Origin: Aquisphaera giovannonii
Lineage (GTDB): Bacteria > Planctomycetota > Planctomycetia > Isosphaerales > Isosphaeraceae
Assembly: GCF_008087625.1 (NCBI RefSeq)
Contig: NZ_CP042997.1
Location: forward strand, 1,178,001-1,242,000
Length of the DNA: 64,000 bases
Direction of reading: 5' to 3'
In this document: positions 53,923 to 58,192 of the stretch, piece by piece
Layout of the letters: every line of letters begins with the position of its first letter
Position numbering within the stretch: position 1 is the stretch's first letter
The notes under the pieces: generated by a model
What the model was told of the DNA's origin: nothing
What the model saw: only the letters and a program-made list of their open reading frames with translations
The model's database searches: none
Program-made: the position numbers and the translations under genes

Positions 53923-55785
53923 ATGGACAACCACTCGCCACGGGACGTGGCGGAAGGCGTCACGCCGAGTGAGGATGCGACGAGGAGCTGGCATCCCGGC
54001 GACGGCGAGTCCCCGCGCGGGGCGGCCGGGGCCGCGGACTCGGGCGGGTTCACGCCCCGGGCGGCGATCGCCCGGCATGCCGCCCGGCCGGGGGCGGCCG
54101 GGGTCCGCTCGGCGATCCGCTCCCGGCTCGGCGAGCTGCCGGTGGTCTACCTCCTCCTGCTGGGCCTGTCGATCTCCTGGCGCGTGCTGATCGGCCGGGA
54201 GGATTGGATGCTCCTCGAGGTGGACCTGGCCCTGATCGCCAGCCTCGTGGCGTTCATGGCGGTGCTCTGGAGCCGCTGGCCCCTCTCCTCGACCTGGCTG
54301 AAGGGCATCGAGCTGGGGATGGTCGGCATGATCGCGGCGCGGAACGTCTTCGTCCAGTTCCACATGATGCTCGGCTACTCGCTGCTCCGCGACCGGATGA
54401 TGGCCCAGCTCACGATGAAGAACGTGGTGCTGCTGGACGCCGTGCTGATCCTCACCTACGGGCTCTACGTCCCGAAGGGCTGGCGGCGGGCGGCGGCGAT
54501 CGTCTTCCCCCTGGCCCTGATCCCCTTCGCCACGCTGCTGGTGCTGGTGCTCCGCTATCCCGAGCCGATGGGCTGGCTCTGGCTCGGCTGGAGCGGCAGC
54601 ACGACGCCCCGGCTCTACCTCTTCGCGTTCGACGCCACCGTGCTGCTCATCCTGGCCGTCGGCGCGACCCTGGGCGCCTTGATGGTGGGGCGGCTCCGCC
54701 GCGAGGTGGACGAGGCGCGGCAGCTCGGGCAGTACCGCCTGGAGGGGAAGATCGGCTCCGGCGGCATGGGCGAGGTCTACCTGGCCGAGCACGCGCTCCT
54801 GAAGCGCCCCTGCGCCGTGAAGCTGATCCGCCCGAGGGAGGCGGCCGACCCGGACGCCCTGGAGCGGTTCGAGCACGAGGTCCGGATCACGGCGACGCTC
54901 TCGCACCCCAACACGGTGGAGATCTACGACTACGGCCGGACCGAGGACGGCCTGTACTACTACGTGATGGAATACCTGCCGGGCCTGAACCTGGCGGAGC
55001 TCGTCCGGCGGCACGGGCCCCTGCCCCCGGCCCGCGCGGCCCACCTGCTGCGGCAGGTCTGCGGGGCGGTGCAGGAGGCGCACGAGGCGGGCCTGATCCA
55101 CCGGGACATCAAGCCGTCGAACATCGTGGCCTCGCGGCGGGGCGGCGTCTGCGACGTGGCGAAGCTGCTGGACTTCGGGCTGGTCCGGTCCTCGCCCTCG
55201 CACCGCGCCGGGGCCGCGGGCGGGGCGGCCCGGGTCTTCGGGACGCCGCTATTCATGTCACCGGAGCAGGCCGTCGGGGCCCCCGAGCTGGACCCCCGCA
55301 GCGACATCTACTCGCTCGGCGCCGTGGCCTATTTCCTGCTGACCGGGCGGCCGCCGTTCCAGGGCGACCGGGGCCTGACGGTGATGCTCGCCCACGCCCG
55401 AGAGCCGGTCACCCCCCCTTCCCAGCTCGTCGCGGGCCTGCCGACGGACCTGGAGCGCGTGGTCCTCCGCTGCATGGCCAAGGACCGCGAGGACCGCTAT
55501 CGCGACGCCGACTCCCTGGAGCGGGCCCTGGCCGCCTGCGCCTGCGCCGACGGCTGGGACCACCGCGTCGCCGCCCTCTGGTGGGCCGAGGTCGATCGGC
55601 GCGACGCCGGCGCCTCCTCGCCCCTCCGGCCCCCGCCGCGCCCGCCCGCGAGCCCGGATCGCACCGGGCCGCCGCCCGCCCCGCCCTCCGCCGCCGCAGG
55701 GCCCAGTCCCGACCGCCCGGCGGTGCGCCGGCCCGCGGTGCCGGGGGCTTCGTCGTTCCGGAGAAACCGCGGACCGGACGGTTGA
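53923..55785 (+). CDS. serine/threonine protein kinase with six-helix N-terminal membrane domain
   Basis: A 620-residue eukaryotic-like kinase. A soluble 70-residue Ala/Arg-rich head leads to six TM helices (from LPVVYLLLLGLSISW to LLILAVGATLGALMVG), so the membrane domain precedes the kinase, unlike PknB types where a TM helix follows it. The kinase domain begins YRLEGKIGSGGMGEVYLAEH (glycine loop). It then has CAVKLI (Lys), HRDIKPSNIV (catalytic loop), LLDFGLV (DFG) and GTPLFMSPEQA (activation segment end). The C-terminal 80 residues are Pro/Arg-rich and disordered. A GGAGG site precedes the ATG. It diverges from the BASS-TPR gene; the ligand or substrate is unknown. Confidence 0.93.
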   Translation: MDNHSPRDVAEGVTPSEDATRSWHPGDGESPRGAAGAADSGGFTPRAAIARHAARPGAAGVRSAIRSRLGELPVVYLLLLGLSISWRVLIGREDWMLLEVDLALIASLVAFMAVLWSRWPLSSTWLKGIELGMVGMIAARNVFVQFHMMLGYSLLRDRMMAQLTMKNVVLLDAVLILTYGLYVPKGWRRAAAIVFPLALIPFATLLVLVLRYPEPMGWLWLGWSGSTTPRLYLFAFDATVLLILAVGATLGALMVGRLRREVDEARQLGQYRLEGKIGSGGMGEVYLAEHALLKRPCAVKLIRPREAADPDALERFEHEVRITATLSHPNTVEIYDYGRTEDGLYYYVMEYLPGLNLAELVRRHGPLPPARAAHLLRQVCGAVQEAHEAGLIHRDIKPSNIVASRRGGVCDVAKLLDFGLVRSSPSHRAGAAGGAARVFGTPLFMSPEQAVGAPELDPRSDIYSLGAVAYFLLTGRPPFQGDRGLTVMLAHAREPVTPPSQLVAGLPTDLERVVLRCMAKDREDRYRDADSLERALAACACADGWDHRVAALWWAEVDRRDAGASSPLRPPPRPPASPDRTGPPPAPPSAAAGPSPDRPAVRRPAVPGASSFRRNRGPDG

Positions 55786-55934
55786 ATTGGGGGGGCGTCG
55801 CCGCTAAAGTTACTCTGTCGTTCCGAGCCCCACACACGCTCGGTCGACTTTCGGGTCGCACTACCGTGGTGCGACGGACTAGAGCCCGCTCCCGCGCGAG
55901 GCTGGACTCCCGCGGGCCCGGGGAGGCTAGAACG

Positions 55935-55982
55935 AAAGGAGGTGATCGCGTGTGTAGTGATAACCAGGAGCGGCTCGCCTAA
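55935..55982 (+). promoter_or_regulatory. perfect Shine-Dalgarno sequence with ten-codon reading frame
   Basis: AAAGGAGGTGATC (55935-55947) is the exact complement of the 3' end of 16S rRNA, far stronger than any other site in the window. Two bases later a GTG opens a ten-codon frame, MCSDNQERLA, ending at TAA (55980-55982). An eight-pair hairpin (CCGACGGG, TTG loop, CCCGTCGG, 55989-56007) follows seven bases on. It could be a translated upstream frame or a ribosome standby/stall site; a true small protein is less likely. Confidence 0.5.
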
Positions 55983-56166
55983 CGGCCGCCGACGGGTTGC
56001 CCGTCGGGCAGCCGCATCTTCGACCAATACCTTACGGTTTGGTTCGGCCAGGCCCGCGGCCACAAGCCCGGGCCTGGCTGGATTCCCGTTCGTGAGATTC
56101 TCGCATAGATTCGCTCGCCTCGTCGGTCGTGTTCTCCGGCGGCCATGCCGCCGGACCTGGGGTCCC

Positions 56167-56289
56167 ATGACTCTCCTCCTGACGCCGGCCCATACCTACG
56201 GCCCGAGCATCAACCGCGGATGGTGCCGGTCCTGGGCGTTTACCAGGCCACAACCAGGTCCCCGGCCCGAGGAGGGTGCACGCGTCTGA
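56167..56289 (+). CDS. putative Trp-rich leader peptide of the DAHP synthase attenuator
   Basis: A 40-residue frame starting ATG at 56167 (a GGGG lies five bases before it). It contains Tyr at codon 11 and the cluster GWCRSWAF, with two Trp codons at 56221-56223 and 56233-56235 and Phe at 56239-56241. The rest is Pro/Arg/Glu-rich, and it ends with TGA at 56287-56289, 31 bases before the terminator. The second Trp codon is inside stem strand 1 (56226-56235). A stalled ribosome there would leave strand 2 (56254-56265) free. Codon bias alone would not single it out; the evidence is position plus competing stems. Confidence 0.45.
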   Translation: MTLLLTPAHTYGPSINRGWCRSWAFTRPQPGPRPEEGARV

Positions 56290-56358
56290 CCCCGCCCTCC
56301 ACCTTTCAGGCACACATTCCAGCCCCGGGACCTGGCCTTCAGGTCCCGGGGCTTTTTT
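56226..56358 (+). terminator. attenuator: competing stems and Rho-independent terminator
   Basis: The terminator is a perfect 13-pair stem (AGCCCCGGGACCT at 56321-56333 with AGGTCCCGGGGCT at 56341-56353, seven-base loop) followed by six T (56353-56358). Upstream, AGGTCCCCGG at 56256-56265 can pair with the terminator's 5' arm (seven contiguous pairs plus two past a bulge), forming an antiterminator. That same strand also pairs with CCGG and CCTGG at 56226-56235. The three mutually exclusive stems match the 1:2, 2:3, 3:4 logic of amino-acid attenuators. It stands 105 bases before the DAHP synthase start. Confidence 0.7.
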
Positions 56359-56463
56359 CGTTCCCGACCCCCACGCAATCACGATTCGTACCCGACCTGT
56401 ACCAGCCCCGGCCGACGGCGGAGTGGCCGCCGCGGCCGATCCATCCTTGGGAGACGGTGGACC

Positions 56464-57477
56464 ATGATCGTGGTCATGAAACCGGACGCGACGATGACGC
56501 AGATCGAGCACATGGCGGAGCACATCACCGGACTCGGCCTGACGCCCCAGGTGATCCACGGCAAGCACCAGACGGTGATCGCCGCGCTCGGCGAGGAGCG
56601 GCAGGGGCTGCTCGAGGCGCTCGAGCCGGGCGAGGGCGTCGAGAAGGTCCTGCCGATCATGGCCCCGTACAAGCGGGCCAGCTCCGAGCTGAAGAAGGAG
56701 CGGACCGTCGTCTCCACCCGGGACCTCGTGGTCGGCGGGGGGCGGATCGCGATGATCGCGGGCCCCTGCTCCGTCGAGAGCGAGGAGCAGATCGTCTCCA
56801 TCGCGAAGACGCTCCGGGCCCTGGGCGCCACCGGCCTGCGGGGCGGCGCCTTCAAGCCCAGGACCAGCCCGTACAGCTTCCAGGGCCACAAGGAGGACGG
56901 CCTGAAGATGCTGGCCGCCGCCCGCGCCGAGACCGGCCTGGCGATCGTCACCGAGGTCATGGCCCCCGAGCACGTGCCGATGGTCGCGGAGTACGCCGAC
57001 GTGCTCCAGATCGGCGCGCGGAACATGCAGAACTACCAGCTCCTCCAGGCGGTCGGCGACTCGGGCAAGCCGGCGCTGCTGAAGCGGGGCATGAGCGCGA
57101 CGGTCGAGGAGTTCCTCCTGGCCGCCGAGTACATCCTCGACCGCGGCAATCCCAACGTCATGCTCTGCGAGCGCGGGATCCGGACCTTCGAGGACCACAC
57201 CCGGTTCACCCTCCCGCTGGCCACCGTGCCCTACCTGAACGAGAAGAGCCACCTGCCGGTCGTCGTCGACCCGTCGCACGGCACGGGCAAGTCGAGGCTG
57301 GTCGCCCCGATGGCCCGCGCGGCCGTCGCCGCCGGCGCCGACGCCCTGATCCTCGAGGTCCACGACGACCCCGAGCACGCCATGAGCGACGGCGCCCAGT
57401 CGATCACCCCCGCGACCTTCAGCCAGCTCGTCGAGCAGTGCCGCCGCGTCGCCGCGGCCGTGGATCGGTCGGTCTGA
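56464..57477 (+). CDS. aroF: 3-deoxy-7-phosphoheptulonate (DAHP) synthase
   Basis: A 337-residue enzyme that condenses phosphoenolpyruvate with erythrose 4-phosphate, the first step of the shikimate pathway to Phe, Tyr and Trp. An N-terminal ferredoxin-like regulatory domain (residues 1-68, [20 protein letters not shown]) precedes the TIM barrel. This is the arrangement in which aromatic amino acids inhibit the enzyme allosterically in Thermotoga-type DAHP synthases. Barrel motifs are [51 protein letters not shown] and [17 protein letters not shown] precedes the ATG. The leader upstream may add attenuation by aromatic amino acids. Confidence 0.95.
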
Positions 57478-57608: not shown

Positions 57609-57780
57609 GTCCCCTCCCCCCACCGTGGGGGAGGGCTAGGGAGAGGGGGCAACCGCCTCCGACATGCGAAGAAGCCTCGGGATGGTCCGTGCGGGCCCGC
57701 TCCTGTTCACCGGCTCGCGAGACATCCGAGGGCCTTTCGGACCCCCTCTCCCTAGCCCTCCCCCACGGTGGGGGGAGGGG
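57609..57780. repeat. repeat family C, copy 2
   Basis: A 172-base element with ends CCCCTCCCCCCACCGTGGGG, GAGGGCTAGGGAGAGGGGGC and the mirrored CCCCCTCTCCCTAGCCCTCC, CCCACGGTGGGGGGAGGGG. It matches C1 at 34567-34732 in both ends and length. Confidence 0.75.
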
Positions 57781-57820
57781 ACCGGAATGGTCCCTCGCCT
57801 CGATCTGTGGGTGAAGCAAA

Positions 57821-57844
57821 GCCCGCCGTGGGGGGAGGGGACCA
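57821..57844. repeat. repeat family C, solitary half
   Basis: GCCCGCCGTGGGGGGAGGGG then ACC, the right end of family C, standing alone 41 bases beyond the complete copy. Confidence 0.6.
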
Positions 57845-58192
57845 GAGTGTCGCGTCCCCACTCGTGGGCGGTGACGAGCCTCGAGGGGGAGCCAGTTCGC
57901 GCTCCTACCCTCGGCGAGCCGGGGCAGGAGGAGAGCCTGGGCTCCACGGCGTTGGGCCGGCGCGACAGGCACGGCCGCAGGCCTCGATCGCGACCCTCGC
58001 CCCGCCCCCACCTCCGCGCCTCCCCGCCCGCGCCTCTCCGACGGGCGCGGCGCAACCCCCATGTCGCCCTCGGATTCACGCGGGTCAAAACGTTCGGCAT
58101 TTGATTTGCTTATGCGAGTGGCGAGGCACGCGAGGCCTCGACGCCGCGGCGGCTTGCCACGACCCGACACCCCCACCCGATCCGAGGACACC

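Follow-up and report, generated by a model that had tools for sequence, protein, structure and literature searches.

A predicted transcription attenuator responsive to aromatic amino acids ahead of DAHP synthase in planctomycetes

The DAHP synthase locus and its leader

The window analysed here is a stretch of 64,000 nt from the Aquisphaera giovannonii contig NZ_CP042997.1 (1,178,001-1,242,000), and all coordinates are positions in that window. It contains a gene for DAHP synthase (3-deoxy-7-phosphoheptulonate synthase), identified by the NCBIfam profiles PRK08673 (480 bits) and TIGR01361 (390 bits) and by Pfam PF00793 and PF18152, with an N-terminal ferredoxin-like domain. The features that concern us are this gene and the elements ahead of it:

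55782-55810, +, putative promoter of the R1 RNA, perhaps of the whole leader (TTGAAT-N17-TAAAGT, from sequence)
55851-56011, +, single-copy structured RNA, model R1 (covarying stems; extended unit about 55815-56085)
56167-56289, +, leader peptide frame of 40 codons, with homologous frames in relatives
56214-56224, +, strand 1, overlapping the first Trp codon and predicted to pair with strand 2 in the minimum free energy (MFE) structure
56253-56265, +, strand 2, the putative antiterminator arm, within the leader frame, complementary to 56321-56335 and covarying with strand 3
56321-56334, +, strand 3, 5' arm of the terminator (fold and terminator scan)
56340-56358, +, strand 4 (56340-56353) and T6 (56353-56358), completing the intrinsic terminator (sequence and fold)
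56464-57477, +, DAHP synthase, the gene proposed to be controlled (NCBIfam and Pfam matches)

The upstream neighbour (53923-55785, +) is a predicted protein kinase (Pfam PF00069) in which hydrophobic stretches can be seen by eye N-terminal to the kinase domain, and 3' of the DAHP synthase gene, at 57620-57845, there are inverted and repeated GTGGGGGAGGG/CCCTCCCCCAC elements, likewise noted by eye.

The leader frame runs from an ATG at 56167-56169 to a TGA at 56287-56289 and encodes MTLLLTPAHTYGPSINRGWCRSWAFTRPQPGPRPEEGARV, in which the control codons are those for Tyr11 (56197-56199), Trp19 (56221-56223), Trp23 (56233-56235) and Phe25 (56239-56241). An earlier, sequence-only reading of this locus had described a short frame with Tyr and GWCRSWAF, three mutually exclusive stems and a 13-pair terminator with T6. 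The frame and the stems are present, as judged from the sequence, the MFE structure and the fold of a truncated transcript, and so is the terminator, whose arms AGCCCCGGGACCUG and CAGGUCCCGGGGCU form 14 pairs when the basal A-U is counted with the 13, closing a 5-nt loop and leading into T6. In the MFE structure of 56167-56360 (z -3.5 relative to dinucleotide shuffles) strand 1 (56214-56224) is paired to strand 2 (56253-56265); in a transcript that stops short of strand 4, the partner of 56253-56265 is 56321-56335. This truncated-transcript fold of the window leader does not contain the strand 1:2 pairing, which is the least supported part of the attenuator.

Taken singly, the window leader has three aromatic residues in its best 10 codons, a clustering that is non-significant and is reached by approximately 44% of shuffles (p ~0.44), and its strand 2:3 complementarity has p ~0.1 compared to shuffles. 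That the feature exceeds chance is therefore concluded from its conservation in relatives, and not from its own sequence.

Conservation of leader, terminator and antiterminator

The DAHP synthase protein was matched in 45 of the 45 Isosphaeraceae genomes searched. Most of them encode two versions, one closely orthologous (about 76-94% identity) and the other diverged (about 50%). A leader with Trp, Phe and Tyr codons, such as YQGWWFWFT or YRGWWWYPVF, precedes approximately 35 of 39 Isosphaeraceae orthologues, and VTLGLFATYFAGSYQGWWFWFTSATSGRRAVCGGVV, LFSYRGWWWYPVFTGSTTSGRRAEGGI and YSFTFGYWWWARSFTEWTAAGRRAMLGL are examples with the same layout as in the window. Among the orthologue upstream regions, the frame is missing in three genomes of genus g18 and in genome G011; at the g18 loci L035, L037 and L038, the R1 RNA gene and its U-tract hairpin stand directly 5' of DAHP synthase, with no aromatic leader between. 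The regions upstream of the diverged second DAHP synthase have no aromatic leader, their mean best score being 2.5 versus 2.2 in shuffles. The sister species and most genera carry more control codons than the window copy, and two genomes of the same genus have GWWRSWSF and GWWWSRAF where the window has GWCRSWAF, suggesting that the latter has probably lost Trp codons and, from the sequences compared, is probably an eroded form of the leader.

Similar leaders are found beyond this family. In other Planctomycetia families, 60 upstream regions were compared and more than half of them contain an aromatic frame, for example MNSAATTYWFWFYFTPTGRGAGGGI, MNTFAASQFGFWWFFSPPGRGAGGGV and MRHRYFSYRYWYFYFSPPDHRAGAVL, and in some genomes of other Planctomycetota classes leaders like YYFRYYYKRGG are followed by U-tract terminators. 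In f3 genera that possess diverged copies alone, those DAHP synthase genes that were readable lack the leader. In a sample of 59 loci from outside the planctomycetes, 13 have similar frames ahead of DAHP synthase, compared to 4 when the reverse strand is scored; they are clearest in Geobacteraceae and Acidobacteria, those of AT-rich Clostridia being less certain. Individual loci with aromatic-rich short frames 5' of DAHP synthase include L203, L204, L227 and L240 (Geobacteraceae and relatives), L230 and L231 (Acidobacteria), L255 (Verrucomicrobiales) and L262 (Lachnospiraceae), and several of the non-planctomycete frames stand before U-tract hairpins.

The mean best count of Phe, Tyr and Trp per 10 codons is 5.0 in Isosphaeraceae and 5.0 in the other families. 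The reverse strand yields 2.2-2.3, with no value above 4, and shuffles yield 2.8-2.9. Individually, 13 of 39 Isosphaeraceae regions and 27 of 60 regions from other families reach p<=0.01 for aromatic content. Across 64 leaders, which were picked by aromatic content and underlie the residue and codon counts, Trp occurs in 62, Phe in 64 and Tyr in 61. Codons for Phe and Tyr are as important as those for Trp. In the Isosphaeraceae leaders, Phe is encoded by TTT in 61% of cases and Tyr by TAT in 65%, versus 9% and 17%, respectively, in the DAHP synthase genes of the same family.

Among 68 leaders examined, 64 are followed by a terminator (-15 to -33 kcal/mol) that starts 11-48 nt past the stop codon. 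In 48 leaders deduplicated at 80% identity, by which kinship is only partly controlled, the strand 2:3 energy beats that obtained with permuted strand 3 (z -7.0; p 0.0002, the lowest value that 5000 permutations allow), and several pair types occur at each of strand-3 positions 4-9 in a pair table limited to pairs formed by RNAduplex. Against shuffles of single leaders, 26 of 64 reach p<=0.05; this single-leader signal is weak in GC-rich sequence, hence the need for the cross-species permutation test. In 35 of the 48 deduplicated leaders, the 3' end of strand 2 falls 15-23 nt short of the last nucleotide of the stop codon. The C-terminal part of the peptide is conserved as GRGAGGG or GRRAEGG and, since strand 2 matches the 5' arm of the terminator, this conservation is best understood as the imprint of strand 2 on the coding sequence. 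The aromatic residues vary in number and order between leaders.

Ribosome positions were simulated in ViennaRNA with strand 3 emerged and strand 4 absent, using a simple footprint and equilibrium folding. For free RNA the mean 2:3 probability is 0.26 in Isosphaeraceae and 0.36 in the others; it becomes 0.57 and 0.53, respectively, when the last aromatic codon is occupied by a ribosome, and 0.28 and 0.22 when the stop is occupied; stalling at the best codon gives 0.65, a figure that is a maximum over codons. On average this agrees with the direction expected from sequestration by strand 1, and the window copy does so weakly. The sequence-only reading had proposed that a ribosome stalled at Trp frees strand 2 for antitermination, a direction recovered in the relatives, while for the window itself the contrast is small (0.65 free, 0.76 stalled, 0.66 with the ribosome at the stop). 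As these values differ little, the window copy may switch weakly, or else co-transcriptional order may escape the simulation. The sequence-only reading had also anticipated aromatic codons and covarying stems across Isosphaeraceae, and in most of these genomes, and well outside the family, the codons, the terminator and the covarying 2:3 pairing are indeed kept, the 1:2 pairing being predicted only.

Promoters and the upstream structured RNA

Outside Isosphaeraceae, a promoter of the form CTTG[CT]-N16-18-xAnnnT precedes the leader start in 17 of 31 leaders, where shuffles lead one to expect 0.05. The start codon lies 5-8 nt past the sigma70-like -10 box, and 6-7 nt past it in nearly all cases, from which a leaderless control peptide is predicted in these families. 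The same promoter is found in 0 of 33 Isosphaeraceae leaders, and these are mostly without a clear ribosome binding site.

In Isosphaeraceae, transcription of the leader may be supplied by the R1 RNA. A -10-like box stands at the same place as that of the putative R1 promoter in many aligned relatives. The R1 hairpin of this family is mostly followed by few T, although some loci were missed by the hairpin finder. Given the absence of a local promoter and the poor U-tract after the R1 hairpin, we infer that transcription starting at the R1 promoter probably continues into the leader.

The stems of R1 show two-sided changes in 15 of 35 pairs, and the model has hits in 163 of 248 Planctomycetia genomes, nearly always a single one per genome; a few genomes from beyond Planctomycetia also have it. 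Except in Isosphaeraceae and some f3 genera, the RNA lies away from DAHP synthase, among unlike neighbours, and most of the unlinked copies have a U-tract terminator of their own. The window copy has its own hairpin (56046-56079), a short frame of about 10 codons (55950-55982, MCSDNQERLA), the length of which varies in steps of three, and a segment, AAAGGAGGTGATC, that is a 13-nt complement of the 16S rRNA 3' tail. No Rfam family matches R1 at gathering or permissive thresholds. Its identity as 6S RNA is disfavoured, there being a weak sub-threshold 6S candidate elsewhere in the genome, and a role as a second attenuator of DAHP synthase was set aside, as R1 occurs once per genome and at other loci in most families. 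Being single-copy and mostly unlinked to DAHP synthase, it is probably not part of the attenuator mechanism. It may be a conserved small RNA or an RNA of dual function, and may correspond to the ‘Rhodopirellula-1’ motif listed in PMC2864571.

Proposed mechanism, alternatives and significance

In the trp, phe and his attenuators of E. coli, a leader peptide with control codons overlaps a four-strand RNA in which terminator and antiterminator are alternatives, and a ribosome at the leader stop favours termination. The proposed logic of the planctomycete leader is the same, with the difference that strand 2 lies inside the leader frame and not past its stop, and its target is the first common step of the shikimate pathway, unlike those of the E. 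coli systems. The Trp leader of Rfam is RF00513, and the planctomycete leader has no Rfam match. What is observed is a frame rich in codons for the end products, an intrinsic terminator before the gene, and a covarying antiterminator that excludes the terminator, in an arrangement of rather constant spacing and, in other families, with a promoter of its own at the leader start codon. On this comparative evidence the attenuator is real, and we regard it as very probable that DAHP synthase is under ribosome-mediated transcription attenuation of the trp/phe type, responsive to Trp, Phe and Tyr. The suggestion that trp-type logic is applied at the first shikimate step thus gains support from the conserved codons, the terminator and the covarying 2:3 pairing, with Phe and Tyr codons added to those for Trp.

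In the window, the leader at 56167-56289 would be translated by a ribosome following RNA polymerase at short distance. A shortage of any of the three charged tRNAs, for Trp, Phe or Tyr, would make it stall in the aromatic codons, leaving strand 2 free to pair with the emerging strand 3, so that no terminator forms and transcription continues into DAHP synthase. With an ample supply of all three amino acids, the ribosome would reach the stop with its footprint over the 3' part of strand 2, strands 3 and 4 would pair, and transcription would end at approximately 56358. Translation of the frame, its coupling to transcription, the response to the amino acids and, in Isosphaeraceae, transcription from the promoter of the upstream RNA gene are the inferred parts of this scheme.

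Other explanations for the arrangement can be considered. The hairpin could be an ordinary terminator of the R1 RNA or of other upstream transcription, with the DAHP synthase promoter within 56358-56464 and the aromatic frame a coincidence. An RNA gene does sit upstream, and the window sequence alone shows no significant aromatic clustering; however, aromatic frame and terminator co-occur in most relatives, including those where the RNA gene is elsewhere, while a separate hairpin, at 56046-56079, belongs to the R1 RNA, the unlinked copies of which mostly have U-tract terminators of their own, and coincidence gives no reason for the covariation of strands 2 and 3. This explanation is thus very improbable, and the concern raised with the sequence-only reading, that the terminator might belong solely to an upstream transcript, is unlikely to apply, because the hairpin stays near the aromatic frame also where the RNA gene is elsewhere.

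It is equally hard to credit that a T-box or riboswitch, i.e. binding of tRNA or a ligand in place of ribosome position, governs the terminator. Such switches share the architecture of terminator and antiterminator, but no Rfam family reaches its gathering score in the whole window, and permissive searches of the leader gave weak sub-threshold matches, none of them to a T-box or amino acid leader. Moreover, it is codons and amino acids that are conserved, and no fixed aptamer, and the rare Phe and Tyr codons in the leaders and the promoter placed at the start codon also speak against such a switch. The richness of the leaders in Trp, Phe and Tyr, together with the conserved C-terminal GRGAGGG or GRRAEGG, could instead recall TnaC-like arrest, in which an aromatic nascent peptide, the exit tunnel and a ligand stall the ribosome, and not uncharged tRNA. 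Yet arrest that requires the amino acid would turn a biosynthetic gene up just when its product is plentiful, opposite to the direction that the observed pairing implies; RNA strand 2 accounts for the conserved C-terminus, and the aromatic residues vary in order and number, leaving arrest of this kind with a very small probability. Attenuation by ribosome position remains the preferred reading.

Proposals of a similar kind exist in other bacteria. In Corynebacterium glutamicum, a short leader peptide with Phe-Tyr-Phe has been proposed as an attenuator before the DAHP synthase gene aroF (PMC4046766); the likeness is a short leader with aromatic codons before a DAHP synthase gene, and the differences are the phylum and the use of Phe and Tyr, planctomycete leaders nearly all having Trp, Phe and Tyr. 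The uORFC-13-1 motif of Acholeplasma, with 24 representatives and no planctomycetes reported, consists of a uORF just 5' of a terminator, exclusively before aroF, with at least one Phe codon, a ribosome binding site and possible -10/-35 boxes (PMC8632094). By its published description, it has the same uORF-terminator-aroF layout as the planctomycete leader. The earlier remark that no such system was known from a planctomycete agrees with the literature searched, which covered few subscription papers and yielded no description of a DAHP synthase attenuator in these bacteria. Considering the Corynebacterium and Acholeplasma proposals, the planctomycete attenuator would be a new and widespread branch of an already known kind.

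We see about even chances for a broader view, in which the pan-aromatic attenuator is an old, general control of shikimate entry that goes with this kind of DAHP synthase, in much of Planctomycetota and in Geobacteraceae, Acidobacteria, Clostridia and Verrucomicrobiales, and also provides genomic evidence of coupled transcription and translation in planctomycetes. Since the mechanism depends on a ribosome that trails RNA polymerase closely, its conservation bears on the question of a separation between transcription and translation in these membrane-rich bacteria. For Gemmata obscuriglobus the two processes have been reported to be compartmentalized, as cited in PMC5287468; the coupling argument is not extended to Gemmata itself, the leader not having been found in the large-genome f3 genus examined. 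Through an attenuator of this type, apparently undescribed there in the literature searched, planctomycetes would gain a concrete mechanism of gene control for aromatic synthesis.
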